From contig CP126197.1 of assembly GCA_030272155.1 (NCBI GenBank), forward strand, positions 3,154,001 to 3,218,000: a stretch of DNA of 64,000 nt, in the 5' to 3' direction. The position numbers and the translations under genes are program-made. Shown here one piece after another: positions 22,218-59,973 of this stretch. The DNA is from Tetradesmus obliquus. Lineage: Eukaryota > Chlorophyta > Chlorophyceae > Sphaeropleales > Scenedesmaceae. Each line of letters starts with the position of its first letter. The first letter of the stretch is position 1. The notes beneath the pieces were generated by a model. That model was not told the origin of the DNA and made no database searches. It saw nothing but the letters and a program-made list of their open reading frames with translations.

Positions 22218-23113
22218 TCACACGCCGCTGCTGCCCGCCTTGGTGGGAGAGCCGCTTTCAACTGCCTTGGCTGCTGCTGCCCCCGGTCCTGCCAGCCCCA
22301 GCAGCTCCAGCAAGCCAGCAAAGTCCTGCACCACTGCATCAGGCGCTGGCAGGTACTCCGGCCACACCTCGCAGGGGTTGCGCTGCACGTACACACCACG
22401 AAGGCCAGCCTGGGGGGGCGGACAGGCAGCAGCAGCAGCAGCAGGCCGCCGGCAGAAGCAATACATGTTGGGTCAATGGCAGCTGACAATGCTGGCTGAT
22501 ACTTGCGGTAGTATCACGTGGGCAGCGGCAACCACGAGACATGCAGCGCACTCAACAGCATCTATACCTGTCATGACAAGACACTTGCAGGTGACTATTG
22601 CATGTTGTGAATGAACTCGACATGTTCAGGTCAGTATTGCAAAATCACAAATCACTGGTCTTCATCTGGCATTATGAGTACGGCAAGCCACACCTGCATT
22701 GCTCCCGCGATGTCCCAGGGGTGACTGGCCACCATGCACACCCTGTCAGCCGACACGCCCAGCTGCTTCACCGCAAACTGGTAGCTGGAAAGGAAGGGCT
22801 TCCAGGACTGGCAGGGTGATGAGGTGGCGGCATATACAGTGGCAGCGACAGCAGCACCCAAACGCTTACAGATTGTGATGTTATAACAGCAGGCGAGGCC
22901 CAGTGCATGCAGCTGGTGCCTCACATACTGCTGCTCAATGCTTTGGTGGGGTTGCTGATGCAACACAGACACCATGCAACCACTGTCCTGGCTCTGATTG
23001 AGGCCTGCAGTGCAGGCACAAGTGTGCCTGCAAGCAGCCATTCCCAGCACTGGCTGCTGCTGCCGTCACGGCACCTCCCAGGCATAGGCCGCCATTGCTG
23101 CTGCGATGGTACC

Positions 23114-23158
<45 letters not shown>

Positions 23159-24275
23159 TCATTGCCGGCTCACCTCAGGCATGCTGATGTCCAGCATGGG
23201 CCCCTTCACCAGCTGCATCACCTTGTTGCCGGTCAGCACCGCCTTGGCAATGCCCTCGGCAGAGCCATTGGTCAGCACAGACACCTGCAGTGCAGCATCA
23301 CAGTAGCTGATGTCAGCATTGAGAAAGGACAATCTACTGTGTCTGACACCGTGCCGTGCTGTTCTGGAGCAGAGCCATGCGGCAGCACAGACACCTGCAG
23401 CACAGCATCACAGCAGCCAGGTTCAATGCTGAACTGAACACCATGCCGCGCTGTGCTGGAGCAGAGTAAATTTATCAGCACAGACGCCTGCAGCGCAGCA
23501 ACAACCAGCACATTGTAGCAGCCATAGCGCATCACCGTATGCTGATCTCTGCTGCAGCAGGGCCCGCCAAGCACCATACATGCATGCATCATGCATGCGG
23601 CTGCCGTTGAGCATCACATGTCGGCCCACCTGAATGTTTGCATTTGCCGGGTGCCGCAGCGCCTCAGGGATGTCAGCATTGCATGGCAGCATGCCGTTAC
23701 ATGCTGCAGCAGAACTTGACACTATGCATGCATGCGGTGTTTCACCTTGATGTTTGCGTTGTTCAGGTGCCGCAGCGCCTCAGGGATGTCGGGGTACAGC
23801 GGCGCTGCTGCCCAGGCCGCCATCACCTTCTGCATGGCGTCAACGCCTGTCAGCCTGCGCAGGGGAGGCGGGCATGAATGCATTTTGTGTATACAGTGAG
23901 CGAGGTGCATCAGCAGGCTTCATCATGTGACAACCGGTCGATGAATGCCACCACATCAGCAATGCAAGTCCAGCAATTCAACGTGCATTGCAGTGCAAAG
24001 GCCACAGATGACAAACAGCGGCCGCTCAATGGGCTATAGCATGCTGCCAAATCCCAGTGCAGCGCACAAAGCAGCAATGTGTTGCTCCCTCTCCTTGGAC
24101 AGTTCTCGCACCTGCTCCACTCCTCTTTGCCGGCTTCTCGCAGCATGACCTCCAGGTGGTGTGCCCCCACCTCCTTGAAGGGCCGGAACAGGCCGGCAGC
24201 CTGCGCTGCGAACGCATCTCGCAGCACGTTGGCAAACCACAGCTGCAGGGCAGAAGGTTGAGGGGTGGAAATAAT

Positions 24276-24329
<54 letters not shown>

Positions 24330-24792
24330 CAGCAGCAGGGCGGCGACAACTTGTTCAGCAGGATGTGCGGAGGCAGCGCCGCGTCAGCAGGACAGGTGCA
24401 GTCATGTTACATTGTACTTGGATGATCTGAGTTTTACAGGGGTAGGTGTAGCGTGTGCACAGCTGCATCATAGGCATGCTTTGCCGGCTGGCGGTGAAGC
24501 AATTGCGCACAGCAGAGCCAAATGCAAGAGCTTTGCAGGAACAGCGTTCACATACTCAGTCTTGGTGCCAGACATCTGCTATCGCTTATTTGACCTTAGC
24601 ATGCGTGACACGGGAATTGTTGTGCTGGCCCACCTCCACTAAGCTCTCATTTAGTCCCAATTCCTTGAATGCAGGCGCAGCTGCTGTAGCAGCAAAGAGT
24701 GTGCCATTCACGTCGAGCAGCACTGCTTTTGGCTTCAGCTCCGGCTTATCCAGACTTTGCTTGTAGCCAGTGAGCTTTTTGATGACGTTCAT
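22218..24792 (-). CDS. haloacid-dehalogenase-like (HAD, type II L-DEX-like) hydrolase
   Basis: Six exons (24634-24792, 24112-24242, 23746-23854, 23174-23284, 22694-22807, 22218-22409) give 271 residues. All HAD motifs are present: the nucleophile D27 in LLDVNGTLF, T138 in LTNG, K173 in SWKP and D202 in VASHPWDIAGA. The motif I shape (D-V-N-G-T-L) and VASHPWD resemble (S)-2-haloacid dehalogenase-type HADs rather than phosphatases with DxD. The helical cap lies in exons 2-3 (LWFANVLRDAFA, then PDIPEALRHL). Plant and algal relatives are uncharacterised, so the substrate is unknown. The start is the first in-frame ATG, shortly before motif I, and no targeting peptide is obvious. It diverges from the mutase gene with 442 bp between start codons. 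Introns carry broken copies of exons 3 and 4. Confidence 0.88.
23285..23700 (-). repeat. intronic copies of HAD exon 3 tail and exon 4 head
   Basis: In the intron between exons 3 and 4, the start of exon 4 (CTGCAG|GTGTCTGTGCTG...GGCTCTGC on the minus strand) recurs near 23370-23405 and, more weakly, near 23475-23500. The end of exon 3 (ATCCCTGAGGCGCTGCGGCACC...AACATCAAGGTG) recurs near 23630-23685 with substitutions. Each copy retains a splice-site-like edge but no complete exon. Confidence 0.75.
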
Positions 24793-25234
24793 GGCGCTCT
24801 AAAGCCTGGCTGTAAACTCAGCTAATGCTTGCAAAGCTGCTGCAGGCTGGATCTCTGCGCTGCTTACGTCAGCTACCGCAACGTTTACACGAATGCACTG
24901 ACGTTCACAGAGAAGTGCTTCTAAATTGGTTCGATGTTGAATCGTCGTGACTGTTCAGCCAGGTCAACTTGGTGAGTAATCAAGAATGTAGCTGTTTTGT
25001 GCACGTGGCTTGGAAGCTGCAACACCAAGCTGATTTCTGGCTTTTACTGTGCTTAGTCGGTGTAGCTAATTTGATCGTATTGAAGCGCTAGCGTAGGATG
25101 ATGTTACGTGACCGGAAGGGTTTCGAATTTCAGTGCATGTGGGCCTTGATGAAAAAGACAGCTGCCAATTGCATCAGTTAAACCGAATAAGCTTAAATGG
25201 CCGCGAGATCGGTCTCGTGTTCCATGCTGTAGCC
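24793..25234. promoter_or_regulatory. shared divergent promoter region, HAD hydrolase / mutase
   Basis: The 442 bp between the two start codons must contain the 5' leaders and promoters of both genes. It is more AT-rich than the exons. I see no TATA box or other element at a convincing position, so this is assigned from gene orientation only. Confidence 0.45.
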
Positions 25235-27468
25235 ATGCTCCTCAGCAGCAGTTCCAGCACCTGTCTGCAGCTGGCCCGCGTGCTGCCCTGCGCGCTGCAG
25301 CTGCTGCGTCACTCGTCAACGGTTGCAGAAAACGTTAAGCAGTGGCAGGCCAAGGCGACAAAGGAGCTAAAGGGAAAGGACCCTCTGCAAACCCTGGCAT
25401 ATGAAACAGCAGATGTAAGCAGCAGAACAGCTACATTGCAGCAGCTGCTCAGCAACTGCAGCTGAAACGTACTCGCTGCATCTCTGCAGGGCATACCTGT
25501 CAAGCCGGTGTACACAGCTCAGGACATGGAAGGTCTGGAGCATGTGACACAAGAGGTCGGTTGCTTGTTGCTTGGCCCGACCCATGGGCTCACATGACAG
25601 TTACGCAACCACGCCAAACACAACACAAGCAGCAGTAACCATGCTACCGCAACATGCGAACACAGCTGCAGTAACAGCAGCACCATCTGCAGTTTTCAGA
25701 GAATGCGTTGCTCCCTGCTGATGTGGCAAGCACTGCCACATCAGCGCTGCTGTTGCACACCTGCTGCAAGGATACTGCCACTCGCTGCGCCAGCAACAAG
25801 CAGCAGCTACCCCACCCACTTTGCCTCATGCTTGCTTCCTTACTGCTGAGCTGTTGCTGCATCTTGTACGTGTGCTGTTTTGGTGCTATTCGCCTGCAGC
25901 TGCCTGGCGTGTACCCGTACTCCCGGGGCCCCTATGCCACCATGTACACTGCCCGGCCCTGGACCATCAGGCAGTATGCAGGATTCTCCACAGCAGAGGA
26001 GTCCAACGCGTTCTACAAGGTACAACAAAGCAGCGCAGCAGGGACGCCTGCAGGACATGCAGGAAGAGTAGGAGCAGCAGTTTACTAGCTGCTGAAGCAA
26101 CTGCAGTGCTTCTTGTAATCTAGAACTCTAGGGTGTGCAGGCATCCCTGTGCGCTTGTACCTCCAACGCAGCGGCAGCAGCAGCAGCAGCAGCAGCAGGG
26201 GCAGTCATTGCTGGGTGGCTGTGCTGCTACTGTACAGGTGCACACTGCTTCCTACACAACGCCATGCCTCCACCGCCTGCCGCCTGCCATTCACCCCACC
26301 GCCAACCGCAGAAGAACCTGGCTGCGGGAGGCATGGGCTTGAGTGTGGCATTTGACCTGCCCACCCACAGGGGCTATGACAGTGACCACCCGCGAGTCAT
26401 GGGTGCGTGGCTTCTTGGGATTTCAATGTGTTTCCATTCAAGTTGTTAGGTGGTGGCGCAGCTGTTGGGCTGTTTGCTATGACAGCAACCACCCAGGAGT
26501 ATGGGTGCGTGGCGCAGCTGTGGGGCTGCTTGCAGGAACATGCACCTGATAAGCGCGAGTTGGTTGGCAGCTGCTCTTCCCTGCAAGCAGCTTACACACA
26601 GCACATGGTAGGAGGGGTGGAGGCGCATGAGGTATCCTCAACACCACACACGTCCCCTTCCTTTACTTATGCGGGTGTCAAGTGAACACACCACGCATAG
26701 CCCATTCATTCATTCACACACAGCATCTCCCAGCAACAACCAGGCCGCAAGAGAGCTGCAACAGCCAGGCCGCGCTCTCCCACGCTCACTCCCTTGCTGA
26801 TGCGTCCAAAGGTGTGCATGCCATGGCTCCAAGCGACGTGGGCATGGCTGGCGTGACACCAGCCACGTCCCCATCATCACCCCCTCGGCCATGTCATTGC
26901 CCATACTCCTGAAGCTGATCAGTGATGCTTGAGTATGAAATCAATGCCCATATGCTGATGGCGCCAAAACTGTGCTTGCCATAGCTTCAGGCGAGCAGTC
27001 TGCAAGCATCAGGCCCGTACTCTCACTCTCTTGATCACCCTTAACGCCACAATATGCTGATGCCGCAAAAGGTGTGCATGCCATGGCTCCAGGCGATGTG
27101 GGCATGGCTGGCGTGGCCATCGATTCAGTTGAAGACATGAAGGTGCTGTTTGATGGCATCCCGCTGGACAGGATGAGCGTGAGCATGACCATGAACGGCG
27201 CGGTGCTGCCCATCATGGCCATGTTTGTGGTGGCGGCACAGGAGCAGGGCGTGGCGGCGGAGGCACTGACAGGCACCATCCAGAACGACATCCTCAAGGT
27301 GGGGAGTTTTGAGGGAGCCTCCCTGGCTAACTGAGTTAGGCAACTTCACACTCGTTTGATCAGCTCAATGAGAGGATGACGGTGACTACGTGCTCAGAAC
27401 AGCCAGAGCTCATGGTGCGCAAGACCGTGTGAGACGCTAGCTCATGCTCGAAAGGATGCTGTGCTTTG

Positions 27469-27516
<48 letters not shown>

Positions 27517-27562
27517 AGGGTTTCATCTGTTTGGTGTGGTGTTTATGCTCGCAATGTTGATG

Positions 27563-27615
<53 letters not shown>

Positions 27616-27793
27616 GCTTGCTGCCTCAGGAGTTCATGGTGCGCAACACATACATCTACCCGCCGCGGCCCTCCATGCGCGCTGTGGGTGACGTCATGGC
27701 CTACACCGCAGCACACATGCCCAAGTTCCACCCCATCAGCATCAGCGGATACCACATGCAGGTGGGGCTGGCAGCAGCAGCAGCACCACCAGC

Positions 27794-27824
<31 letters not shown>

Positions 27825-30800
27825 TCGGCAGTGAAGCAGTACCTTAGACCTGCTGGTCAGCAGGCAGAAGAGCGGCTGTCGCAGGACATCACCTACCAGA
27901 GCAGCCAAGTGCTGCAGCATACAGTGTTAGATTACCTCACCTTGTTCAGGCTCCTTGAACCCCCAGCCTAGTGTGCGCCGAAGCATCTCCTTGCTGCAAT
28001 AATCATTGCTGCTGCTTGCCACAACACAACGCCTGCAGGAAGCTGGGGCCACGCCTGCCATCGAGCTGGCGTTTACCATTGCTGATGGCCTAGAATACAT
28101 ACGCTGCGCCAAGGTGTGCAAAGAAGGCCAGTTGAAAGTTTGGCTGTTGTTGGAACCATTCATGGCACTGCCGCAGCTACAGCATGCTTCATTGCCGCGC
28201 CAGCTGCTGGTTACTGCAGGTCTGTGTTCATGCCTGCTCTGCTGTGTCACAACCAACCTTCAAGGCTTGATGGCTGCCTACCTGCCACAATGGCCCAGCA
28301 CACATACTTTGCAGCCGCCGGCTTTGTTTACTGGCTCGCATGCCTGTTCTCAACCCTTCCTGCCTTGCATTGGCCATCACTATGACTCCCCTGCACTCAA
28401 CTGCTCAAGCTCAGCTGCACCTGCTGCTGCTCCTGCTGCTGTGTGTTGACTTTCCTGCAGGCTGCAGGCCTGGAGGTGGACCAGGTGGCGCCCCGGCTGT
28501 CATTCTTCTTTGCCGTCGGTTTGAATTTCTATGAGGAGGTCGCAAAGCTGCGTGCAGCGCGGCGGCTGTGGGCGCGCATGGTCAAGGAAAAGTTCAACCC
28601 CAAGAAGGAGTCAAGCCTGGTGCTGCGGTATGTGCTTGTTGCGGCATGCTTGCAGCATCCTTGTACATGGCTGTACAATCGTATTGCATGGCTTGCTTCA
28701 TGCGTACATTCCTGATATGTACAAGCTGACACAGCAACAGGATCATACATACCTTTCACGCAACAACATCATCCGCACACTGCTGGCCCTGTTGGTTACC
28801 AATGCTCTGCTGCACCGTTTTGACTCTTGCTTGCAGGACACACACTGCCAGACTAGCGGCTACTCACTCACAGCGCAGGAGCCGCACAATAATATCTTCT
28901 GCGCAATTGAGGCACCATTCCCTGTGCTGACCATATATCCTGTGCCAATCTTTACTCAAACATCTCTCCTGCAGGACACACTGCCAGACCAGTGGCTACT
29001 CGCTGACAGCACAGGAGCCGCACAACAACATCATAAGCACACTGCTCGCCCTCTTCATCACCTCTGCTCCGCTGCACCGCTTTGACTCACACTTGCAGGA
29101 CACACTGCCAGACCAGCGGCTACTCGCTGACAGCCCAGGAGCCGCACAACAACATCATCCGCACCACAATCGAGGCGCTGGCGGCTGCGCTGGGCGGCAC
29201 GCAGTCACTGCACACCAACAGCTTTGATGAGGCGCTGGCCCTGCCAACAGACTTCTCTGCTCGCCTGGCGCGCAACACGCAGCTCATCCTGCAGGTAGGT
29301 TGGGGCGTAATGCTGTTGATGGCTAGTAATTTGTAGCATGTTAGGGCAGCAGCGGTTGTCCCTTTTGCAAGGACAGCTGGCGTGCTTGTCTTTGTGCACT
29401 AAGGCTTTGAAAATGGTACAAGGGGAGGCTGGCACAGCAGCCATGGCTAGGCGCTGGGCTGCACACCAACAGCTTTGATGAGGCGCTGGCGCTGCCCACA
29501 GACTTTTCGGCACGCCTTGCACGCAACACACAGCTCATCCTGCAGGTAGGTATGAGGAGGTACCTATGAGGGCGTGATTTATACATGCATGCCAGCAGTG
29601 GATGTGGCTGTTGCAAGGGCAGTTGGCGCGCTGCTGCTTCGTGCACCATTAACTTGAAGGTACAAGGGGCGTGTAGAACAACATGATGGCTGGTGCTGGT
29701 CGAAATGCAGTCACCGCACTGGTGCTTCTGGGTTTGGCTTGCAGGAGGAGACAGGCATCACGCGTGTCGCTGACCCCTGGGGCGGCAGCTTCTTCATGGA
29801 AATTCCTAACGTAGTGTGCAGCTCCCTGTCACCACACCAACAAAAGTGAAACTGCTGCACCACGGCTTGCAGGAGGAGACTGGCATCACACGTGTCGCAC
29901 CCCTGGGGCGGCAGCTGCCCTGTCGCCACACACGCACACACTCATGTCGCCACACTGCTGCTTGCAGGAGGAGACAGGCATCACGCGCGTTGCTGACCCC
30001 TGGGGTGGCAGCTTCTTTAAGGAGAGCCTCACCGCATTGTGCAGCTTCCCTACCAGCACATCACAGCAGCATGCCACACCTGAATCTGCTGCACCATGCC
30101 TTGCAGGAAGAGACTGGCATCACGCGTGTTGCTGACCCCTGGGGTGGCAGCTTCTTCATGGAGAGCCTCACCGCATTGTGCAGCTGGCCTGCCACCAAAA
30201 GAAATGTGCCACAGCTGAAACTACTGCACCATGCCTTGCAGGAGGAGAGGGGCATCACGCGTGTGGCTGACTCCTGGGGCGGCAGCTGCCCTGTCGCCAC
30301 ACACGCACACACTCATGTCGCCACACTGCTGCTTGCAGGAGGAGACAGGCATCACGCGTGTTGCCGACCCCCGGGGTGGCAGCTTCTTCATGGAAAGCCT
30401 CACCGCACTGTGCAGCTGCCCTGTGACAATGCCACAGCAGCATGCCACACCTGTGTCTGCTGCATGCCTTGCAGGAGGAGACAGGCATCACGCGTGTTGC
30501 CGACCCCTGGGGTGGCAGCTTCTTCATGGAGAGCCTTACAGCCAGCCTGGAGGCTGCCGCTGAGAGCTTGTTGAACGAGGTTGAGGGGCTGGGCGGCATG
30601 ACGGAGGCGCTGCTGGCAGGTGGGGTGTTATTTTCTGTTATTTGTGGTGTAAAAACATTGAAAAAGCCAGCCTGGAGGCTGCGGCTGAGAGCCTGCTGAA
30701 TGGGGTGGAGGCGCTGGGCGGCATGACGGAGGCGCTACTGGCAGGTGGGCTGTTATTTGTGTTGTTATTTGTGGAGTAACACTTGTTGAAAAGCCAGCCT

Positions 30801-32871
30801 GGAGGCTGCGGCTGAGAGCCTGCTGAATGGGGTGGAGGCGCTGGGTGGCATGACGGAGGCGCTGCTGGCAGGTGCGGCGGTGTGTCTGTCTCCATTGATG
30901 GTGTGATACAGCATTTGATGTTTGACATCTGGTTGCGGCAGCCTTGGCGGCGAGCAGTGTGTATGACTCGCAGAGGCATGCCCGCATATGAGGCAGCCGC
31001 AGGATCCTCGCCAGGCTGCTGGCTGCAGCTGCTGCGGTCGCTGCAAAGTGCCTTATTGTTCAGCACACTATGAAGCAAGCAGTGTCGGGCAACAGCCTGT
31101 TGTTGTTGCTGAGCATGCCTTTGGCCAACAACTGTTGATGAAGCACTTTCCTACTTGCTCCCCTGTTGCCGCAGGCCTGCCCAAGCGCAAGATAGAGGAG
31201 TGTGCAGCGCGGCAGCAGGCGCGTGTGGACAGCGGCGCACAGGTCATTGTGGGAGTGAACAAGTTCATCAGCCAGGCGACAGGTGCGCAGCAAATGTCAG
31301 CCGCTGCACTGTTTGTACTGCGTGTTGTGCTGGCGACTACACAGTGTGTGCTGCGGGCAACACCTGCTTTTGTACCAATTACACAAGCCAGATGTACATT
31401 GCTGCAAACACATATCAAGGCAACTTGAGAAAGGCACCACTTGTTGTCTTGTAGGTGCAGCAAGGTGTGGCCGCTTGCTGGCTCTCTGCATATATATCTC
31501 TGTATATCGCCTTGCTGCATCAGAATGAATTGTTACATTAGGGAAACGGGGCTCGCCAACCCAAACCCGAGCCCCCCTCAACACCACCACATATATATAC
31601 AGTTGCGTCGCCTTGGCATCAGAACTGATCAGTTACATCGCTGGAAACCCACAAACGACAGCAAAACCACACCACAAACCACAACCCCAACAGCAGCCAA
31701 CGAAGAGGGGTGGGCGGGCGGGTAATTCGACTGACTGGCTGCTGCCTCAAGGGCAGCAGCCAAGAAGAGGTCGACCACGGCGACGCACAAGGGCTAAGTA
31801 TTAGTATAAGTAGTAGTAATGCAAGCACTCACTGAACCCTTCAAGAGCTGCACCCACCCTCCACCCTGGTGAGCCACGGCTCCTGCCATAAACGCCTTAA
31901 AAGGCTAATATATATGTAGGGATCTGAGCACCGCCTTCAGTTGGGGGTCAGATGATTTGGCTGTGTGAGATAGTCTTCCCAAGGGCAGAGTCCTGATGCA
32001 GCCATGCTGTCATCCGCCCTCCTTCACCTGCGCTCCTCAAGTATGTGTTGCTGGGAAAAGTAACATTTTCACCCACACCCTGCCTCCATCTCGCTGCAGA
32101 CGCAGAAGCCGTGCCTGTGCGCCAGATAGACAACAGTGCGGTGCTAACTGCGCAGCTGGCGCGCCTTGCGCAGGTCAAAGCCAGCAGGGACGGCGCAGCA
32201 GTGGCGGCGGCGCTGCAGGCCATTGAGGCAGCAGCACGCAGCAGTGAGCGGCAGCCCAATCTAATGGAGCTGGCTGTGCAGGTGGGTGTGCATCTTCAGC
32301 AGCCAATGACGCGGCAACAACCTGGCAGGGCCGATGGTGTTATTGCTATGGCTTGATAGGAAATTTGGTGATGCCTGGCGCATATGCTGCGTGAATACTG
32401 CTCTGTGTTGGTGCGCAAGGCCATGATTTTTGCTGGAGTAGGAGTGTTGGGATGGCGAATGTACTGCTGCCATCAGCTCATACATGCGAGGACAACATCA
32501 TCGTGAGCATTTGCTGTGTGGTTGAGGCACAACACCGCAGACTTTATGCGTAGCATCGGCCCATGCTAGAAATGTGCGCTGTGCCTGTGGTTGCAGGCGG
32601 CGCGTGTGCGCTGCACAGTCGGCGAGATCAGCGATGCACTGGAGCGGGCCTGGGGCAGGCACGCAGCCTCGACAGCAGTAGCGCCAGGCTGCTACGTCGC
32701 AACGCGCAACGCAGGAGCTGCAGGTGTGAGCCAGCCTGCGCACCCTGCCTGCGCGGCAGTCAGGCTTAGTAGCAGCAGAGCTGAGGCTTTGCTGCGGCTG
32801 TTGGTATGCGTCTTGCAGTGGCCAGACACAGTGCTGTGTTGGTGGGTGGGTGTGAACATGCTGTGCATGGT

Positions 32872-32920: not shown

Positions 32921-34835
32921 CTGCCGGGCTGGATGCTGACGTGGAGGTGGCCGAGGTGGAGTCTGCGGTGGCGCGCTTTGAGGCGATCACTGGGCGGCGG
33001 CCGCGCATCCTCATCGCCAAGATGGGCCAGGACGGCCACGACAGGTGCGCGACAAATGCAATTGTATTTGAATACTTTGCTGTTGTACAGCTCTTCAAAG
33101 ACGTCTGGCGTATGCACGCTAGCTGCGGCAGCCATGCCGTGATATCCTCATCGCCAACATAGGCCAGGACAGCCATGGCACGTGCGCCGTAGTCTTGCTC
33201 GGTGCATATCCTTGCATGCAGGGGCGCGCGCGTGCTGGCGAGCGGGCTGGCTGACCTGGGCTGTGCTTGAACAGTTTCACATCCCTTGAATTACCCTGCA
33301 TGTGTGTATAGCTGCGCGCAGGGGTGCGGGCGTGCTGGCCAGTGGCCTGGCCGACCTGAGCTGTGTCTTGTTGTCTTCCTGCCCCTTGCCACTCAACATA
33401 CTTGTATATACACCTACCTGCAGGGGTGCGCGCGTGCTTGCCAGTGGTCTGGCTGACCTGGGCTTTGAACATGCTGCCGATCACATGCCCGACAGCGCTA
33501 CCCTAACACCTCACCTGCTCTCCCACTGCGATTCTTGACAAAAACCGGCAGGGGTGCGCGCGTCCTGGCCAGTGGCCTGGCCGACCTGGGCTTTGACGTG
33601 GACATCAGCCCGCTGTTCCAGACGCCCGCTGAGGTCACGCTGCAGGCCATGGACGCAGACGTGCACATTGTGGGCATCAGCAGCCAGGCGGCAGGGCACA
33701 GGTGGGTTGCTTCATGCTCAAAAGGGGGTGTCTTCTTAGGAGCCTCTTGTTGGCTCCTGGTTGGGTTTCCTGCTCCTTGTTGAGTGGAGCATGCTGTGTT
33801 GTGCACATCGTGGGCATCAGCAGCCAGGCGTCAGGCCACAGGTGGGTTGCTTCATGCTCAAAAGGGGGTGTCTTCTTAGGAGCCTCTTGTTGGCTCCTGG
33901 TTGGGTTTCCTGCTCCTTGTTGAGTGGAGCATGCTGTGTTGTGCACATCGTGGGCATCAGCAGCCAGGCGGCAGGCCACAGGTGAGAGACACAGACAGTC
34001 AGTGCATTGAGCTGAGCGAGCTTTCAGAAGAGCTGCTGCCAACACATGTCGGACATGCTGGAAGGGCATCAGTGGTTATGCTGGTTGTGGGCAGGCAGCA
34101 CAATCGGGACGGCCCAGCCATGCTCGGTTTGAATAGCTGGTTTGAATAGCTGGTGTGTGTTTGGGATGTGCATCTGACTTGACTGTGTGCTGCTGCTGCA
34201 GGTCGCTGGTGCCGGCGCTGCTGCAGGCGCTGCGTGAGGCTGGCATGCAGCACGTGCTGGTGGTGGTGGGAGGCATCATACCGCCCCAGGTGAGCGAGGA
34301 GCTGTGTGTTTTGTTGCGTCTTGTCTGATGTTGTGGCAGCTTTGCAGCGGTAGACTCTACCGCTCATCGGATTAGCATGTTGCTTGCAGCATTACAGGGG
34401 CAGCTGTACACGGATGTGACTGCAGCTGCTGGTGCAGCAAGACAGAAGTGAGATGCAGCACAGCGGCAACATAGCACAGCGTCTGGTGTTGTCGCAAGCT
34501 AGAAGCGCGATGGTTTAACTTGAACAGGAGCGGCATGCAGCTGTTGTGTGTGACGATGTCACGCAGCTACATCTGCTACCAGCACTGGCGCAAGCATGCT
34601 ACTGCATGCTGTCCTGCCGCTGCTGCCGATGTTGCTTGCATTGCTGCTTTTGCCGTCATCCCGCCTCATTGCCCGCTTGCAGGACCATGCTGAGCTGTAC
34701 GAAATGGGTGTGGCAGCCATCTATGGCCCTGGCACACGCATCCCAGCAGCAGCGCTAGACATGATCCAGCTGCTGGTGGGGCCTGAGGCCCTGGCAGGCG
34801 ACAAAGCAGCAGCAGGAGGAGCCAGCGCAGCTTGA
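25235..34835 (+). CDS. MUT (MCM): methylmalonyl-CoA mutase, adenosylcobalamin-dependent, mitochondrial
   Basis: Seventeen phase-compatible exons give 769 residues, close to the usual ~750: 25235-25414, 25490-25555, 25900-26019, 26312-26402, 27093-27298, 27630-27761, 28039-28113, 28461-28627, 29099-29294, 30475-30619, 31175-31282, 32100-32281, 32597-32723, 32921-33044, 33552-33701, 34202-34289, 34683-34835. The enzyme converts (R)-methylmalonyl-CoA to succinyl-CoA in propionate, odd-chain lipid and branched amino-acid breakdown. The N-terminus (~30 residues, Ser/Leu/Arg) looks like a mitochondrial presequence. The TIM barrel carries [35 protein letters not shown] and [12 protein letters not shown]. 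The C-terminal B12 domain has DGHDRG (D636, H638 cobalt ligand, G641), then [10 protein letters not shown] and [10 protein letters not shown]. No key residue is missing. The ATG at 25197 is followed by an in-frame stop, so 25235 is used. Introns hold many partial copies of exon edges, listed separately. Confidence 0.96.
26455..27000 (+). repeat. fragments of mutase exon 4 end and exon 5 start in intron 4
   Basis: Near 26465-26512 the end of exon 4 with its donor recurs (GCTATGACAGCAACCACCC...ATGGGTGCGTGG). Near 26812-26862 the intron end and head of exon 5 recur (GTGTGCATGCCATGGCTCC-AGCGACGTGGGCATGGCTGG), with the acceptor AG shifted. A third, weaker fragment of the same junction lies near 26965-27005. 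All lie in intron 4, outer edge to outer edge. Confidence 0.75.
27471..27615 (+). repeat. two (CTG)n tracts in mutase intron 5
   Basis: Two (CTG)~15 tracts (about 27467-27516 and 27566-27615) occupy most of intron 5. The second ends 14 bases before the exon 6 acceptor, so it takes the place of the polypyrimidine tract. A small copy of the exon 6 head lies just upstream near 27402-27424. Confidence 0.85.
28835..29040 (+). repeat. two extra heads of mutase exon 9
   Basis: The acceptor plus first ~70 bases of exon 9 (TTGCAG|GACACACTGCCAGACC...) occur three times, starting at 28836, about 28975 and 29099. Only the last continues through the whole exon. The first copy has a 2-base insertion (GACACACACTGCC) that would shift frame. 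The second diverges after AACAACATCAT. Confidence 0.9.
29450..29550 (+). repeat. extra tail of mutase exon 9
   Basis: The last ~85 bases of exon 9 and its donor (CTGCACACCAACAGCTTTGA ... CTCATCCTGCAG|GTAGGT) recur here, 250 bp downstream of the genuine exon end at 29294. The copy is nearly identical and still in frame, but no acceptor precedes it at a proper place. Confidence 0.9.
29745..30474 (+). repeat. six tandem extra heads of mutase exon 10
   Basis: The acceptor and first ~50-75 bases of exon 10 are repeated six times before the genuine exon. Exon-like starts lie at 29745, 29873, 29968, 30107, 30242 and 30339, with the true one at 30475. Intervals are 128, 95, 139, 135, 97 and 136 bp, so two unit lengths (~96 and ~136) are interleaved. 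Every copy keeps TTGCAG and GGCATCACGCGTGT (the second with CACACGTGT). Most continue through GCAGCTTCTTCATGGA before turning into intron sequence. Confidence 0.95.
30655..30885 (+). repeat. two tandem extra tails of mutase exon 10
   Basis: The last ~90 bases of exon 10 with the donor (GCCAGCCTGGAGGCTGC ... CTACTGGCAG|GTGGGC) recur at about 30666-30755 and 30791-30875, after the genuine exon end at 30619. Both are open in the exon's frame and both end in a good GT donor. Confidence 0.95.
31480..31990. mobile_element. insertion of unlike composition in mutase intron 11, possible LINE 3' end
   Basis: This ~500-bp stretch is AC- and AT-rich, with none of the CAG/CTG texture of its surroundings. 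A plus-strand frame ends in a strongly basic tail ([13 protein letters not shown]) at 31804. It is followed by AGTATTAGTATAAGTAGTAGTAA and an AT-rich end with TTAAAAGGCTAATATATATG. A basic ORF end and a short AT-rich 3' region fit a 5'-truncated non-LTR retrotransposon. I found no reverse-transcriptase motif and no target-site duplication. Confidence 0.35.
32876..32920 (+). repeat. (CTG)~14 tract merging into the exon 14 acceptor of the mutase gene
   Basis: The triplet run ends CTGCTGCCAG, whose AG is the splice acceptor required by phase for exon 14. The run therefore serves as, or replaces, the polypyrimidine tract. Confidence 0.85.
33121..33190 (+). repeat. extra tail of mutase exon 14
   Basis: The end of exon 14 and its donor (CGCATCCTCATCGCCAAGAT...GACAGGTGCGC) recur with substitutions (ATCCTCATCGCCAACATAGG...CATGGCACGTGCGCC). 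The B12-binding DGHD codons are altered in this copy. Confidence 0.8.
33218..33480 (+). repeat. three extra heads of mutase exon 15
   Basis: The acceptor and first ~45-60 bases of exon 15 (GCAG|GGGTGCGCGCGTCCTGGCC...GACCTGGGC) occur at about 33222, 33320 and 33423 before the genuine exon at 33552. Each copy is about 100 bp from the next and carries a different intron filler. Confidence 0.92.
33785..33983 (+). repeat. two extra tails of mutase exon 15
   Basis: The last ~45 bases of exon 15 and its donor (GTGCACATTGTGGGCATCAG ... GGCCACAG|GTGGGT) recur at about 33799-33841 and 33939-33981. The ~140-bp unit between them, with CAAAAGGGGGTGTCTTCTTAG, is almost perfectly duplicated. Confidence 0.93.
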
Positions 34836-43519: not shown

Positions 43520-43574
43520 GCCTGTCATTGGCTCCCCAACGGACGAGGTTACTCTTGTAACTTCCAAAACGTGA
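43520..43574. repeat. dispersed 55-bp repeat, copy 2
   Basis: It matches 31-85 with two differences (G/A and T/C). It sits at the left edge of a stretch of unlike composition, so it could be an end of a mobile element. Confidence 0.7.
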
Positions 43575-50409: not shown

Positions 50410-52444
50410 GACCACAAGCAAGATGCAGCAGGATAGCGTGGCGGCAGGAGGTGCACCAGTAGGCCGACAGGGTGGCGTGAAACTGCCTGTGTTGCAGCAA
50501 GTTGACGAACCATGGATGCATCGGCACATGCGTGGAGGCAGCTAGCTTTATATCGGACATGGTGCATGACCCGTAGTGTATGACGCAAGGACCACCAACA
50601 AGAAGTGGCTGCGGCCATGGCGGCATGTGCAGAGCACTGTAGGGCATTAATGAGGCAGCATTGCTTGCAGGTGAACGGTTGTGTATTTACCATGCCTAAA
50701 ACTGTCATATTGCAGCAGCCACATGTGCAGGCTGCAGCAGCTGCCAATGCTACAGCGTGTGTGGTGCTGAGTCTGGGGCTGGGGCAAACCTTGGAAGCAG
50801 AGGACCTCTGCCATCAACTTACGTTTCTGCGTGGTTGTGGTGCTTGCGATCCACAGCTGCTGGCTCTCTGGCTTGAATGTTAACCGCACCTGCAGCAGCA
50901 GCAGCAGGAGGAGGAGGAGGAGCAGCAGGAGCAGGAGCACAGCGAAGCTGAGATACCTAGTGCTGCTTAACCTCATGCTCCGCTTCTGCTCACCCCTGCA
51001 GCAGCGAATCCCAAATTACAGGCAGCATGAACAGCCTCCGCCTTCGGACACAGCAACAATTCTGGCACGTCACACACATGCGGCTGACAAGCTTGTGCAT
51101 GCCCTACACCAATAACGTCCCTGATGTGACACGAGTATGACACCACATATCCCAGGTTGATATGCTCACAAAACCCGGGCGCCTGCTGCAGCCCACCTTG
51201 CTGCCCTGGCTGTTGTAGAGGCCGTTGAAGTTGAGCAGCGAGTCGGGCAGCGGCACCTGCCGCTCAGCAATGCCCGGCATGGCCTCCTCAGGCACGCCCT
51301 TGGCGATCACCTGCGGGGTGCAAGACATAGCACATAACAAATAGGTAACAAAAACATAACAAAACCGCTGGTCAATGCAGATGTACGGCACGCCCTTGGC
51401 GATGACCTGCAGGGCACACAAGCGCAAGACATGACAAGTAACAAACGTGTAACACAACAGCTGGTGGATGCAAGATGCCCGGCATCGCCTCCTCCGGCAC
51501 GCCCTTGGCGATCACCTGCGGGGTGCACATGCAAAACAAACATATTGATAGCCTGCTTGCATACAACTGACTGTAATCTCTAAGTCAATAACACATAGCA
51601 AACACAACACAACAGTTTATCGACACCGCTGGTGAATGCAAGATGCCCAGCATGGCCTCCTTGGCGATCACCTGTAGGGCACACACATGTAAAAACATGA
51701 CAAATAACATAACATATAACAAACATGTAACAACATCGTTGGTAAAAGCAACATGCAAGCAGCCTGCTAGAACTTGCCTTGAAGAGGCAGCACACAATTT
51801 TCTCTCAGCAAACACGCAGCGAATGTACTTTCTGATCCACATGTGGCAGACACCAGCCAAGCAATGAGGCGTGGCTTGCGAGCCTGCTGCGCATGTTCGC
51901 GTAACGTCTGATCGAACTATACCGCCCATTACTTGACAGCCTAGTAGGCAGACTCAATGCACCAAGTACGTGGGCATTATTACTCAAAACAGTCGCGCCC
52001 ACCTTTGCGTGCTGCGGCTGCTTGGTGATGTCTTCATCTTGCTTCGGCGCGTCCCACGCCATGCCGCCTGCGCCGCCGCTGCTGCTGGCTGCGCTGGCCT
52101 TGGCTGCCGCAATGTCTGCTTCGCTGCGGGAGCGGCATTTGAACAAAAGAGATGTCAGAGAAGAGACTCAGGCGACATCATACACAGTAAAATTGCTGAG
52201 CACAGAAACGTGGCGCATGCGCATGCCCGGTTGAGTGGAAGGTATTGCAGGGTATGGCAAAGTGCCAACAGGCCATACATCAGCTGGCCTCTGCAGCTGG
52301 CATCAAGCACCATGCACGTGGGGCACAGCAGTGTGGACATCGCTGACAGGCGCTTGCTAGCCGACAGTGCCACCAGCACAACGCCTGCAGCTGCTGCTAC
52401 TCGTCCCGCTGCTGCCGGTGTTGCGACCAATCCCTCTTCTTGCA

Positions 52445-52487: not shown

Positions 52488-53674
52488 TTGCTGCTGCTGT
52501 CTCACCTGGAGCCGATGAGCAGCACCTTGGCTCCATTCTTGATGCCCACCTGCAGGAAAGCAGCAGTAGGTACGTGCCATTTGAAAGAGAGGAGAGTTAC
52601 ATGTGTGGGTCCTGGTACAACTTGACCAGGGTGTTATCCTGCTGAGGATGTGAGCCACAGTGCCATATTGCCATACGTTACGGCCCCGCCATCACCTTTT
52701 GCAGCGTGGCGGCGTCGTCCTTGAGCAGTCCCTTGTACATCAGCTTCTGCTTGGAGGGGGGTATGGCCAGCGCCTTCTCCACCTCTGCGCTTGCAGCAGG
52801 CAGCACGCACAGCGCAGCACAGCTTTGTTTGTTGCTTTCATAGCCTGATTTGTCGTTTGCCCATCACTTTGCTGGCCAGCAAGCGACAGGCTTACAAGGA
52901 AAATGCAATCCCTTTGTCAACAGCACAGCACAGCACAGCACAGCACAGCACAGCACAGCACAGCACAGCACAGCACAGCACAGCACAGCACGCTGCAGGG
53001 AACGAAGCACAGACAGCACCGGGCAGAACAGCAGATACCAACATGACCATCCAGTCATAGTTGCTGCCAAGAGATGCGGTAATAGAAGAGGCGGTGCGGT
53101 GTTCTGTGTGCCATGTGCCAGCAGTTTTCTAAGCACATTTGCCATCCAGCCTATTGAACACATTGCTACCCCACTGCGATGATGCGCTAGGCGAGTCCAC
53201 AACAATGCAGCTGCAGGCCAGCCAGCGCACCTGCTTTCAAGTCAGCTACTGTGCTGGAGGCGGGCCGCTTGAGCTCTGCGCTGCTCTTGCCATACTGCAC
53301 CTGTGGTGACCACGTGTAAAAGACACAAGAGTTTGATTGTGCTTTGCTTAGTAGGAGTCAGGAAGAACCAGCAACATGCACGGCTCACAGAATTCAGCAC
53401 AAACACCAAGGTTGCATGGAGGAGTGGCTTCTTGACACCAGACGACGCTGCTGGGCAGGAGATTTGATCAAGGCTGTAGGGTACACTGTTAAATGCTATA
53501 ATACGCGGCATCTACCTTGAAGGTGACTTGTGGTGTGTCCTGCTGCTCTGGAGCTGTGCCAGTATCCTTCTGCTCTGCTGCTTCTGCTTGTGGTGCTGAT
53601 TTCGACGACTCCTGCACCACAGCAGCTGTCTCTGCTGCCTTTGAATCCACCTCAGGAGCTGCTACGTCCGCCAT
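49582..53674 (-). CDS. UBFD1: UBFD1-like ubiquitin-domain protein
   Basis: Nine exons (53516-53674, 53231-53300, 52696-52784, 52506-52549, 52003-52123, 51197-51310, 50823-50889, 50228-50355, 49582-49632) give 280 residues, slightly shorter than animal UBFD1 (~309). After an acidic Ala/Glu/Gln-rich N-terminus, residues ~50-130 are a ubiquitin-like fold (VTFKVQYGKSSAELK, then PPSKQKLMYKGLLKDDATL, then NGAKVLLIGS). The C-terminal half has the UBFD1-specific VRLTFKPESQQLWIA, IESWPIAEHPGYSVVSLGLG and YWLYFFPSQYV. In animals the protein binds polyubiquitin and influences NF-kB; in algae its role is unknown. The last exon adds only 16 residues and replaces the usual ending. It follows Trm10 on the same strand with 339 bp between. 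Introns carry exon-edge copies. Confidence 0.92.
49634..49664 (-). repeat. (CTG)~10 tract at the UBFD1-like exon 9 acceptor
   Basis: On the minus strand the CTG run ends in CTGCAG, the acceptor of the last exon. Equivalent tracts precede exon 8 (50358-50406) and, more briefly, exon 7 (50892-50908). Confidence 0.85.
49852..50016 (-). repeat. two extra tails of UBFD1-like exon 8
   Basis: On the minus strand, the exon 8 end and donor (TTCCCCAGCCAG|GTGCG) recur at about 49991-50016 and 49852-49878. Both lie downstream of the genuine donor at 50227 and are followed by the same GCAGGC. Confidence 0.75.
51384..51680 (-). repeat. three extra heads of UBFD1-like exon 6
   Basis: On the minus strand, the acceptor and first 20-45 bases of exon 6 (GCAG|GTGATCGCCAAGGGCGTGCC...) recur at about 51384-51412, 51474-51521 and 51642-51674. 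All lie upstream of the genuine start at 51310. The intervening intron filler, rich in AACATA-type sequence, is repeated as well. Confidence 0.88.
52921..52991. repeat. pentanucleotide microsatellite (CAGCA)~14
   Basis: A perfect run of 5-bp units fills part of intron 2 of the UBFD1-like gene. It is the only pentamer array in a window dominated by triplet repeats. Confidence 0.95.
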
Positions 53675-54013
53675 CTGGTCCCTACTAGATCGCCGTGTGC
53701 TGTGCAAGCAGCTGGGAGTGATGAGGTTGAGTGACTCGGCCTCGCGGAGTGTTTGCAGACGCTTGTTGTCAGCACCCTTCAGCATATTCGCAGCTTACAG
53801 CACGACGTTTTCACCTCGGCTGCTGGCGAGACAGCTGGACCGTCATCGAGCGCAAACCCTGCTGACATGGCATGCCCAGATTCAAATCAAAGAGGCAGCC
53901 AGGCTGAGCCTGGTGGAGTTCTGAGAGTGAAGCTGAGCAGAGGTGCACACCGAATTCTACTGGATCATTTTGCTGATATGTATGTTGGTGCACACTCAAT
54001 TACCAACGCGGTG
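53675..54013. promoter_or_regulatory. short gap between Trm10 stop and UBFD1-like start
   Basis: These 339 bp must hold the Trm10 3' end and the promoter and leader of the UBFD1-like gene, both on the minus strand. No distinct element is visible. Confidence 0.4.
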
Positions 54014-54529
54014 TTACAACCGGCTGGCAGCAACCACTGCCTGTGTCTGCTGCTTCCTGTCTGCTGACCCTCGCCGCTTCCGTGCTGGCAGCGCCTGTTG
54101 CAGCGCATGCACCCAGTCCCCAGTCCTGTTGAATTCCACCAGCGCCACCACCACATCTGACACAGTCAGCACTGGGCGCGTGCTGGCTCCTGCAAACCCT
54201 AAACCCAGCTGCCCCGCATACTCTGCCACTGGCAGCCGCACCGTCTGCACCCCATGCCGCACCCCAAACCCTGCTGTTAAGCCCTTACACACGCTGCGGT
54301 CAACTATCCCGCCAATTACATAAACCTTGTTAGGTTTCAGCTCCTGCAAGGGCTCATCGGCGTCTGGAGATAACACCACAAGCTGCTCAGGTGGCAGCAG
54401 CTGCAGCACATGCTCTGTGTGCTTGTTGATGGGCCAGCTGTTGGCCCCCATGTGCTGCGCAGAAGTTGCCAGGTGGCCTGTAAAGGAGGTCACAGTGAGC
54501 GCCACTGGCTGGGAAGATCTGCACAGTCA

Positions 54530-54566
<37 letters not shown>

Positions 54567-54628
54567 TGCCAGGTGGCCAGTAAAAGAGGTCACAGTGCGC
54601 GCCACTGGTTTTAAGAACCTGCAAAGTT

Positions 54629-54676
<48 letters not shown>

Positions 54677-55041
54677 CAGCTGGTGACTGGCAGTTTGGGT
54701 TTATGACACAAACACACACTTGAGGGTGCCTTCCAATCTAAACAATCCAGGAGCCGTATGTAGTCGTCCTATACACATGCACACATACGCTCACCTCCTG
54801 TTGAGTGACACGCTCAGCTCAATCTGCTTGGCCAAGCTGCGGACCTCACGGCTGCTGTCAGCAGCAGCACGCTGCCACGCAGTCCTGGCATGCCGGGAGT
54901 GCTTGCTGCTGCTGCTGCTGCTGCTGCTGCTGTCACTGCTGTTGCTGGTGCTGCTATCTGCTGAGGTGCTGCTGACTCTGCTGGGCAGGTCTGACTGAGA
55001 ATGTGAAATGCCAAAGTCAGCTGCAGCTGCAGCTGCTGCTG

Positions 55042-55075
<34 letters not shown>

Positions 55076-56122: not shown

Positions 56123-56215
56123 CTGGCTTCGCTCTTGCAGCGCTGCTAAAGCTCAGCTTTTAGTCTGATCAGAATGCTGCAGGCTGGTGTCATCAGCACA
56201 CCCGCTGTTGCTGAG

Positions 56216-56246
<31 letters not shown>

Positions 56247-56612
56247 TTGCAGCAGCCAGGCTGGCATGCTGAGCAGAGCTCAGGTGTTCTGTGCAGCTTG
56301 CGTCACTTGAATTTGTTACAGGCGACAAAACAAGCCAGGTGGAATGCCTGCAGACCACCAGCACGCTTGAAACTTCAAACCATGTTTCAGGGTGTCATGA
56401 CAGCTGCTGTAGCCAGGGTTCTTGACGTGAGTTTGTTGCGCTCGCCACACGACGAGCATCGAACTGCACCAACAGGAGCTGTTTTAGTTATATGTCTGGG
56501 ATGCAGCTGGGCTTGCTTCCGAGCACTGTCTGCCCTGCGCGCAAACGGGCATCAGCACTGATACCATCTATGTTGCGATTGTGACCAACCCTATATATAA
56601 CAATCATACAGG
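56123..56612. promoter_or_regulatory. divergent promoter region, Trm10 / ALG8
   Basis: These 490 bp separate two start codons that point apart. A CTG tract lies near 56220-56250. TATATATAA at 56592-56600 is only 13 bases before the ALG8 ATG, too close to be an ordinary TATA box. Assignment is by position only. Confidence 0.4.
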
Positions 56613-57693
56613 ATGGATATGTGTTTTGACTGGCGGCATCGCCTGGCTCTGGCGGTGGTTTGTCTACAGCTGATGCTGGCCCACCCCAACACATATCGTT
56701 CAACAGACTTTGAGGTGCACCGGAATTGGCTAGCCATTACGTACCAATTGCCCATCAGCAAGTGGTGAGCAGCAGATCTTCGAAATGAGGCCAGCAGGCG
56801 CGTGCCAGCTGTACACCACAGCAGGCAGCAGGAGACGCAGGCAGTACAGCAGCAGCAACTGCTTGCAACCAACCACTTGGCTGTTAGTCCTGCAGCCTTT
56901 TGTTACACATTGTGCGCTGTTCAGCACATGGCGACTCTTTGACTTGCTCGCAAGCCCTGCTTCTTGCTGTGAATCATGCTGCCTCCTGTGAATTGTGCTG
57001 CAGGTATTATGAGGCCACTTCAGAGTGGACCCTTGACTATCCGCCGCTCTTTGCATGGTTTGAATGGGCCATGGCGCAAGCAGCACACTTTGTCGACCCC
57101 AAAATGCTCTCCGTCAGCAACTTGGAATATGACAGCCCTGCAACAGTGCTGTGCCAGCGGCTATCTGTTTCAGTCACTGGCTTGGTGCTGGTGGCAGCAA
57201 TGCTGCATGCCACGCAGCGCAGCAGGGATAGTCCTGCAGGGCTTACGGCGTTCTTCCTGGCGGTTTGCAACGCGGGACTGATCATGGTGGACAACATCCA
57301 CTTCCAGTACAATGGGGTGCTGCTGGGTGCGTAGGGGGCCGCTGCTGCAGCAGCACAGCAATGCTGCTTATGTGCAGAAGCAGCGGCAGTAGATGGTGCA
57401 AATGTTAGCCCAAGGCACCTTCAGATATCACAAGAGAGGGGTGACACTGTATTGTGGCAGCTACGGCAAAAGCAGCAGCAGCAGTGCTGCTGGTGGCATA
57501 GACGGTACAGTCATTGTCATTTGGAAGACGCTCCACAGTGTCAGTGTCCAATTGCTGGTCCTGCTTACACGTGCGCTACTGTCTCGCTGATATGACTGCA
57601 GGGCTGCTACTGTGGCCCATTCTGATGCTTGAGGAGCTGCGCTACTTGCTGGCGGGCGGCCTGTTTGCGCTGCTGCTCCTGCTGCTGTTTGAA

Positions 57694-57728
<35 letters not shown>

Positions 57729-57830
57729 ATGCCTGCAGGGCTGCTACTGTGGTCCATCTTGATGCTCGAAGAGCAGCGCTACTTGCTGGCGGGCGGCCTG
57801 TTTGCGCTGCTGCTCCTGCTGCTGTTTGAA

Positions 57831-57861
<31 letters not shown>

Positions 57862-59973
57862 AGCTGCTATGCCTGCAGGGCTGCTACTGTGGTCCATCTT
57901 GATGCTCGAGGAGCAGCGCTACTTGCTGGCGGGCGCCCTGTTTGCGCTGCTGCTGCTGATTCAAATGCTGTTGCTGCTGCTGCTGCTGCTGCTGTTATGC
58001 CTGCAGGGCTGCTGCTGTGGTCCATCTTGATGCTCGAGGAGCAGCGCTACGTGCTGGCAGGCGCCCTGTTTGCGCTGCTGCTGAACATGAAGCACCTATT
58101 TGCGTACCTGGGGCCAGCCTACTTTGTGTTCCTGCTGAGGCACTACGTGCTGGACGGCAGCAGCAGCAGCAGCAATGGCAGCAGCAGCAGCAGTGGCAGC
58201 AGCAGCAGCGGCAGCAGCAGCAGCAGCGGCGGCTGGGCTGGCATGCTGCGGCGGCTGGTGCTGCTGGGTGGTGTGGTGGTGGCGATCTGCGGGGTGTCCT
58301 TTGGGCCGTTCGTTGCAATGGGGCAGATGGGCCAGGTGAGACGCGAGATGCACAACAGTTGCTTCACGATGACGAGGCGTTTACAAGTTACAAGTATTAC
58401 GCATCAGAAGCAGGCGAGCCTGCTTGAGCCTATGCTCTTCCGGATGATGAGGCTGCTTTGTTTTGAAGGAACTCAAAATGAGGCTGTCCTGACCAGCATG
58501 CTGCAGCTAGCAGGCCGACACATTAGCAACAGCTCACATTAGCTGTTAATGATACCAGCTTTGTCAGCAGGTGGTGTATTGGCTCTCTCCTGTCAAGCCC
58601 GTCTGAGCTTGCACTTGCTGCAGCTACTCGCATTCATCACTGTAGGGTGGTGGCCAGGAAAGGTGCATGCGCCACATGTACCTGCTCCAGCAACACGCGG
58701 TGCATTGTCCGTGAAGTTGTCCGCTGAGGCACGATGTGGCCAGCCTGCAATGCATGCAGTGACAGCAGCAGCAGCACAGCAGGCGCTGAGTGCGTGTACC
58801 TCTGGCCAGATGACACATTACTCGTCCCAGATCCATATGTCAACAGTACTGCTGCGCTTGCTGTCTCTGCAGGTGCTGTCTCGCCTCTTCCCCTTTGCGC
58901 GTGGCCTGTGCCACGCCTACTGGGCTCCAAATGCCTGGGCCCTGTACAGCTTTGCAGACAAGCTGGCAGCAGCAGCAACAGCAGCAGCAGGCCTGCGGCA
59001 GCCGTCCGCAATGCCAGCCGCAAACATGGCAGGCGGCGTTGTGGGAGTCAGCAGCTATGTAGTGCTTCCAAACATCGGCGCTGGCATGTGTGCTGCACTG
59101 ACGCTGCTGGCAATCCTGCCATGCTTAGTAGCTCTCTGGAAAGCACCAAAGGCACAGGCAGGGCCCATGTTTGCGGCAGCAGCTGCATACGCAAACTTGT
59201 GTGGATTCATGCTTGGGTACCATGTGCATGAGAAGGCGGCACTCACTGTGCTGCTGCCGATGGTGCTGCCGGCAGTGCGGGATGCAGGCTGGGGACGGCA
59301 GTTTGTGCTACTGAGCACAGCAGCACATGTGGGCATCTTTCCGCTGCTGTTTGGGGTTCAGGAAGTGCCTGTGCGGTGGCTGCTGGCTGTGTTATATTAT
59401 GTGGGCTGCATTTGGGGCCTGTCTAGCATCCATGGTGGCAGTGCTGCACAGCAGCAGCAGCCGCCGCAGCAGCAGCAAGATTTGGCAGCCTCGGATAATG
59501 CAGGTCTAGGCAATGGACAATCAGGAACGCCTAGCAAGCAGCAGCAGCAGCAGCAGGGCAGCAGCCGTGGAGGCAGTGGCTTGCAGACGCCCGCAGGCGT
59601 ACGCACCAGGCGGCAGGCAGCAGCAACAACAGAGCAGCCAACGCCCAGCTCTGAGCCACAGCTCAAAAGCGGCAAGAAACTTCCAGCAGCAGCAGCAGCA
59701 GCAGGGGTGTCTCAGCAGCAGCTGGGCGCTGGGATACCCCACATGAAGGATTGCTGCAGCTGGCTGCCTGTGGTGTACCGCCTGTATCTTGCAGGGTTTG
59801 TGGTTTTGGAGCTGTACTGTACCCTAGGGCACAGGTTTTTGCTGGGTGAGCGGTTGCCGTTTGTGCCACTGATGCTGACGTCAGTGTATTGTGCGGTAGG
59901 GGTGACGTGGGTGTGGGCCTGGATGGCGCTGTGGTTTGTGCAGCGATGCACAAGCAGTAGCTCAGCAGCATGA
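56613..59973 (+). CDS. ALG8: ALG8, dolichyl-P-Glc alpha-1,3-glucosyltransferase
   Basis: Exons 56613-56764, 57004-57326, 58007-58335 and 58873-59973 give 634 residues (the family is usually ~500-530). ALG8 is a multi-pass ER membrane GT-C enzyme that adds the second glucose to the lipid-linked N-glycan precursor. The family signature [17 protein letters not shown] follows the first helix and includes the catalytic-loop acid. [47 protein letters not shown] and HVHEKAAL confirm ALG8 over ALG6. The extra length comes from a Ser/Gly-rich loop (~208-235) and a ~100-residue Gln/Ser/Ala-rich insert (~456-559) between transmembrane helices near the C-terminus. Three partial copies of exon 3's head precede the real exon; only the acceptor at 58006 leads to the complete exon. 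Confidence 0.95.
57602..58006 (+). repeat. three tandem extra heads of ALG8 exon 3
   Basis: Exon-like starts after CTGCAG at 57602, 57739 and 57879 precede the real one at 58007 (intervals 137, 140, 128 bp). Each copy carries the first ~80 bases (GGCTGCTACTGTGG...CTGTTTGCGCTGCTGCT) and then falls into a CTG tract instead of AACATGAAGCAC. The copies remain open in the same frame, so they would encode a similar hydrophobic helix. Confidence 0.95.

Follow-up and report, generated by a model that had tools for sequence, protein, structure and literature searches.

Gao and Lynch are said to have reported in 2009 that within-gene duplication is frequent in eukaryotes. Tandem duplication is also tied to the origin of introns: a tandem duplication crossing an exon-intron junction gave a new intron in a potato RdRp gene (PMC4974935), and tandem genomic duplication of the AGGT type is an accepted route of intron gain (PMC3443670). 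Here we describe a 64-kb stretch (C7:3154001-3218000, "the window" in what follows) of the 104.66-Mb, 17-contig genome of the green alga Tetradesmus obliquus, in which a mutase gene and several of its neighbors carry, beside their exons, tandem copies of exon edges complete with splice site, which we call spare edges.

These repeats resemble the internal gene duplication attributed to Gao and Lynch in that duplication inside genes is common; that account is not known to contain a unit of about 125 bp, an edge excess or intact spare splice sites. As in the potato RdRp gene, the 3' end of an intron and the head of the next exon are duplicated in tandem, acceptor and polypyrimidine tract being inherited, whereas the potato event was a single one that gave rise to one more exon and to a new intron that is spliced; the copies here are numerous, up to six per edge, and apparently stay intronic (PMC4974935). 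AGGT-type exonic duplication likewise lets tandem duplication interplay with the choice of splice site, but there the unit is exonic and the new intron arises between the copies, whereas the unit here spans an existing junction and lengthens an old intron (PMC3443670). Introners, too, are intron-associated repeats found genome-wide, but they reportedly form dispersed families (PMC9860276), whereas each of the present copies matches the edge of its own exon, and the masked window holds 5 distant pairs. A search of open-access papers turned up none that describes spare exon edges as an architecture of whole genomes, in agreement with a preliminary description of this stretch, made from the sequence alone, which knew of none. 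The pattern is a new form, at apparent genome scale, of a type of event already known, the junction-crossing tandem duplication.

The mutase gene, identified by a Pfam match above cut-off and a match to human MUT, displays the anatomy most fully. Gene structure was anchored on matches to PDB and Pfam because a self-trained hidden Markov model (HMM) gene finder, which followed the mutase, mistook several copies for exons and performed badly in other regions; of its output, the coding and splice scores alone were used. Alignment reveals that acceptor and exon head are copied upstream of exons 5, 9, 10 and 15, and exon tail and donor downstream of exons 4, 9, 10, 14 and 15, the anatomy that the preliminary description had claimed for this gene:

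26476..26513, plus strand: copy of the exon 4 tail with donor (real edge 26373-26411)
26795-26855 and 26950-26994, plus strand: two copies of the exon 5 head (real edge 27055-27115)
28820..29040, plus strand: two copies of the exon 9 head, the first with a 2-base frameshift insertion (real edge 29094-29176)
29459..29545, plus strand: copy of the exon 9 tail with donor (real edge 29208-29295), 8/8 differences at third positions
29735..30407, plus strand: six copies of the exon 10 head, exon starts at 29745, 29873, 29968, 30107, 30242 and 30339, all with a TTGCAG acceptor
30475..30620, plus strand: real exon 10, human MUT residues 402-452 being matched across both repeat arrays
30666..30877, plus strand: two copies of the exon 10 tail with donor
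33144..33187, plus strand: copy of the exon 14 tail (real edge 33007-33050), with differences at every codon position
33217-33265, 33318-33365 and 33416-33468, plus strand: three copies of the exon 15 head (real edge 33544-33596)
33801-33844 and 33941-33984, plus strand: two copies of the exon 15 tail (real edge 33661-33704), with a 184-bp match at 98%

Since the human mutase sequence aligns unbroken over 30469-30621, through both the last of the head copies and the first of the tail copies, the real exon 10 has six spare heads on one side and two spare tails on the other. The spare edges also draw partial matches to the Pfam mutase profile: positions 352-378 recur twice upstream of the exon matching 353-404, and positions 286-315 and 327-355 recur upstream and downstream, respectively, of the exon matching 288-359. 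Judged by homology, the real exon is the innermost acceptor-donor pair. All nine edge arrays (eight BLAST clusters, the two edges of exon 10 being counted separately) span a junction by alignment, where the chance of doing so is 0.42-0.60 per array in the hand-collapsed gene, a gene that was chosen for its pattern. The genome's 15 mutase-family matches all lie in one locus, in a genome-wide search made for this family and not for the other arrays.

The repeats are real and extend beyond the window. Self-BLAST of the window after microsatellite masking (pairs counted at 50 bits or more, and as local when less than 1.5 kb apart) yielded 40 local direct pairs, 1 inverted pair and 5 distant pairs. 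Beyond the window, the genome was sampled in 10-kb stretches, 20 at fixed and 4 at random positions, and 23 of these 24 were pooled with the window (L018, which is satellite-like, was left out) to give 294 kb, about 0.3% of the genome. Within 700 bp of each other, this sample holds 207 direct pairs versus 1 inverted pair, and Markov-1 sequence modelled on the 23 stretches holds no pair of either orientation. The copies are therefore direct and adjacent, as junction-spanning tandem duplication has it, and dispersal of the kind seen with mobile elements was not observed in the masked window self-search, in which the copies were local apart from the 5 distant pairs. With an array threshold of 45 bits, 90 clusters (without L018 and without the four selected loci introduced below) were reduced to 84 arrays by dropping units longer than 300 bp and arrays 60 bp or less from a locus end. 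Their unit offset has a median of 126 bp (interquartile range 109-148), in keeping with the earlier proposal of frequent tandem duplication of about 90-150 bp, and Tandem Repeats Finder (TRF), applied to the window and all 24 stretches, placed 4 periods in the 50-99 bp range and 23 in the 100-169 bp range. BLAST identity between copies ranges from 67 to 100%, and exon and intron alike are identical between copies in the youngest arrays (L016 and L020).

Most spare edges retain what a splice site requires at its core. Of 65 copies, 59 have an unaltered dinucleotide (AG in 31/32, GT in 28/33), and copies with an intact dinucleotide score 4.92 against 6.35 for the real acceptors and 5.63 against 6.08 for the real donors, a comparison that flatters the real sites, as the best-scoring site was chosen at each real edge. 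Site strength alone can thus hardly account for the choice of site, and the cell would often have to choose among near-identical sites, the problem that the preliminary description envisaged. Were a copy taken as the exon border, a frameshift or stop would follow in 44 of 47 arrays. These comparisons, like those by codon position below, cover only arrays with a scorable splice site. Four loci (L027-L030) had been selected via Pfam matches to copies, a choice that favors conserved proteins; these loci are included in the 65-copy and 47-array counts (7 copies, 4 arrays) and in the copy-copy count below, and left out of the counts of 43, 42 and 84 arrays.

Exon edges are over-represented in the sample. 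Classified by coding flank, 51 of the 84 arrays have exactly one such flank, 30 have none and 3 have both, where locus-matched random placement expects fractions of 0.32, 0.61 and 0.07. This automatic flank test undercounts edges: it scored the eight mutase clusters as five with one, one with both and two with none, while all eight hold exon edges by alignment. Without the "both" class the excess is 51/81 against 0.34 expected (p = 1.5e-7), and against a genic null restricted to arrays near coding sequence it is 48/70 against 0.46 (p = 1.3e-4; with four score thresholds, between 2e-7 and 2.4e-4). Of the fresh arrays, 10 of 13 lie at an edge (p = 0.025; 0.015 to 0.061 over thresholds, 0.061 being reached at a stricter one). 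In simulated decay, junction copies remain visible 1.32-1.37 times longer than intronic copies, and the genic null corrected for a 1.35-fold visibility leaves p = 0.007. Because the excess shrinks under the genic null and the visibility correction, it is partly a matter of ascertainment, given the gene density and the longer time for which exon-derived sequence stays visible as it decays, and what is left of it is modest. The preference for edges that had been put forward for counting against random duplications is present in the 294 kb (51/84 against 32%) and shrinks to a modest residue once both corrections are made.

The arrangement of the copies is nearly invariant. Exon-by-exon Pfam searches with six families, among the 320 matches listed (best candidates only), gave 49 overlapping pairs, 25 of which were dropped by hand as copy versus copy, composite matches, neighboring real exons or near-equal ranges. 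Of the 24 retained pairs, 12 have the spare head upstream and 11 the spare tail downstream, and 1 is possibly opposite (a synthetase on C15), the 23 of expected geometry coming from nine genes on eight contigs. The opposite arrangement was seen in 0 of the 13 testable two-copy arrays of the sample, a test that does not cover 19 arrays lacking a coding outer flank (15 multi-copy, 4 with a short spacer). The earlier observation that no copy lies in the opposite arrangement holds up, with one possible exception, but not its interpretation as the set of copies that selection would keep: a tandem duplication across a single junction can only place a spare head upstream and a spare tail downstream, so the geometry is no sign of selection. 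It supports tandem duplication and not selection on arrangement. Duplication of whole exons with later decay from either end was also considered and rejected, as it predicts opposite arrangements, of which none was seen beyond the one possible case.

Why would a genome tolerate so many spare edges? Probably, short tandem duplication is frequent and its arrays grow by exchange, the copies that straddle a junction becoming spare edges in introns and 3' untranslated regions (UTRs) that are tolerated since the innermost pair of sites is spliced. Segments of about 80-170 bp, typically 125 bp, would be duplicated in tandem often, and the arrays may then expand through exchange between copies. From a duplication that crosses a single exon border, one complete exon would survive, accompanied in the intron or 3' UTR by a spare edge made up of part of the exon with its splice site. 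Around the exon, the innermost pair of sites would be the real one, which exon definition would be expected to choose, and perhaps this is what makes the copies tolerable; most of them would decay afterwards.

Several observations sit uneasily with this scenario. If copies drift freely beside a constrained real edge, the ratio of differences at third codon positions (K3) to those at first and second positions (K12) should be at most about 2, but over 43 arrays it is 3.06 (bootstrap confidence interval 2.20-4.40; K3 140/786, K12 92/1579). Among the 42 arrays with a usable flank, the intron part of the unit has a homologous flank in 26 and is unrecognizable in 16, with the cut at the 98th percentile of unrelated flanks. 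Where flanks are alignable the ratio is 2.06, about as expected for a constrained real edge and a freely drifting copy; in the 16 others it is 5.16 (K3 0.225, K12 0.044), as though these copies were held by their coding sequence, and purely neutral drift of all copies was rejected for this subset. In the mutase, where the single-edge comparisons leave out the exon 10 tail (middle copy one base out of register) and the exon 15 head (out of frame), the copy of the exon 9 tail departs from the real edge 8 times in 29 codons, each time silently and at a third position, and that of the exon 14 tail does so at every codon position. Differences between copies are third-biased as well (56/107, a count that is not independent and includes two of the selected loci). 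Furthermore, the arrays are unevenly spread, with no BLAST array in 6 of the 24 stretches, and 17 of 28 TRF arrays of period 60-250 have 2.3-2.7 copies instead of 2.0, so the fresh first step is rarely caught. Such a copy number looks as though the exon part had seeded later exchanges. The third-position bias could arise if copies are or were used as exons, if they were born between alleles that had diverged, or if some arrays contain genuinely repeated exons.

It is possible that many copies are no decoys but undergo translation, or did so until recently, whether as additional tandem exons with new introns, comparable to the potato RdRp gene, or as alternative exons, with purifying selection preserving protein and splice sites. 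The third-position excess, extending to copy-copy differences and to the exon 9 tail, the intact dinucleotides and the gene finder's in-frame exons in the mutase would all fit; however, the frameshifts in mutase copies (+2 in the exon 9 head, -2 in exon 10 copy 2) argue against present translation, copies that were included would add repeated peptides within a domain of the enzyme that is conserved, and one strongly codon-biased copy, at L020 7866-8301, apparently lies past the stop of its open frame. We regard this as unlikely, and so, to the same degree, the idea that the birth of tandem copies often involves two diverged alleles, homologues of a highly polymorphic species undergoing unequal exchange or template switching, so that the copies carry silent differences and unlike introns from the start. 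Such an origin would account for a K3 far above K12 next to unrecognizable introns and intact splice sites, for the codon-biased copy apparently past a stop and for purely intronic copies being rarer than expected, but it requires a very high silent diversity, by estimate about 10% or more, and the identity of exon and intron in the youngest arrays implies that intrachromosomal birth also occurs. A related proposal, which we find rather doubtful, treats the edges as pools of interchangeable coding copies: the ~125-bp tandem process would spawn spares, a large subset of which would be constrained in coding sequence and splice sites, either through use in some transcripts or through exchange of diverged-allele edges between copies.

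More weight, though still well short of an even chance, goes to ascertainment as the sole cause, with random tandem duplications in intron-dense genes and junction-spanning copies that stay recognizable for longer. Random 125-bp units placed in the mutase (introns collapsed by hand) touch one junction in 0.49 of placements, and the simulated difference in visibility points the same way, but the edge excess persists against the genic null and in fresh arrays, and a residue, modest as it is, survives the visibility correction. An assembly artefact from collapsed or stuttered long reads is highly improbable: the young arrays are near-identical, as it would predict, but identities down to 67%, codon-structured differences and the recurrence of the pattern on many contigs of a 17-contig assembly argue against it. 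Frequent tandem duplication with tolerated spare edges hence remains our preferred explanation.

If the pattern holds, 84 arrays in an uneven 0.3% sample extrapolate to about 30,000 arrays genome-wide. On that scale the genome would offer a natural experiment on splice-site choice, with tandem near-identical acceptors and donors of which position sets the working one, as well as a test of exon definition in a compact genome. It would also constitute a fossil record of a narrow-sized tandem-duplication process and reveal an early stage in the growth and the gain of introns.

Other genes in the window carry spare edges as well:

14660..14712, plus strand: CPBP/Rce1-like exon end (stop or donor), copy at 14779-14831; the 14675/14794 pair scores 42.8 bits; Pfam match below cut-off
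18614..18668, plus strand: SnoaL-like last-exon end with stop, copy at 18814-18868; Pfam match below cut-off
21934..21980, minus strand: copy of a HAD-like last-exon end past the stop (real edge 22213-22259)
23627..23674, minus strand: copy of a HAD-like exon tail with donor (real edge 23743-23790)
51387..51685, minus strand: three copies, lying upstream, of the head of a UBFD1-like exon (real edge 51270-51322); Pfam UBFD1 match above cut-off
54466-54508 and 54566-54608, minus strand: two copies of an acceptor-like segment in the gene earlier named Trm10 (name unconfirmed), the coding flank being just under threshold
57592..57945, plus strand: three copies of the head of an ALG8 exon, lying upstream at 57592, 57729 and 57869 (real edge 57996-58073)

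Exon-edge copies had been announced for the mutase, ALG8, UBFD1-like, Trm10 and HAD genes, and alignments bear this out for all but the putative Trm10 gene, where acceptor-like copies are seen under a name without Pfam support. Matches above the Pfam cut-off identify ALG8 (Alg6_Alg8) and UBFD1; Pfam scans for the Trm10 and HAD families matched neither, and these names are those of the preliminary description. Its last-exon ends repeated past the stop were recovered for the HAD-like and SnoaL-like genes and probably for the CPBP-like one, where the HMM gene finder reads a donor at this place, so that the exon end is either stop or donor. The SnoaL-like and CPBP-like pairs score under the 45-bit array threshold; the former (18614/18814) reaches 41 bits, with a local score of 43 against a maximum of 28 among 200 shuffles.

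Repeats of other kinds were also encountered. A 151-bp tandem repeat at 19565-20208 (4.2 copies, 92% alike, neither flank coding) forms a distinct satellite-like array, and L018 holds long satellite-like arrays at 1-3958 and 4086-6013 (offsets of about 274 and 351 bp, 87-96% identical) that were not counted. The window is rich in CTG/CAG triplet runs, several of them apparently within reading frames as runs of Ala, Gln or Ser, and about 4.6 kb of its 64 kb were masked as short repeats; an ACAGC pentamer at 52920-52991 comprises 14.4 perfect copies. A 55-bp stretch at 31-85 recurs on the same strand at 43520-43574 with 96% identity, 43 kb away, and about 400 bp at 60393-60800 match 63509-63931, 3.1 kb apart, at 70% identity, perhaps as parts of related neighbor genes.

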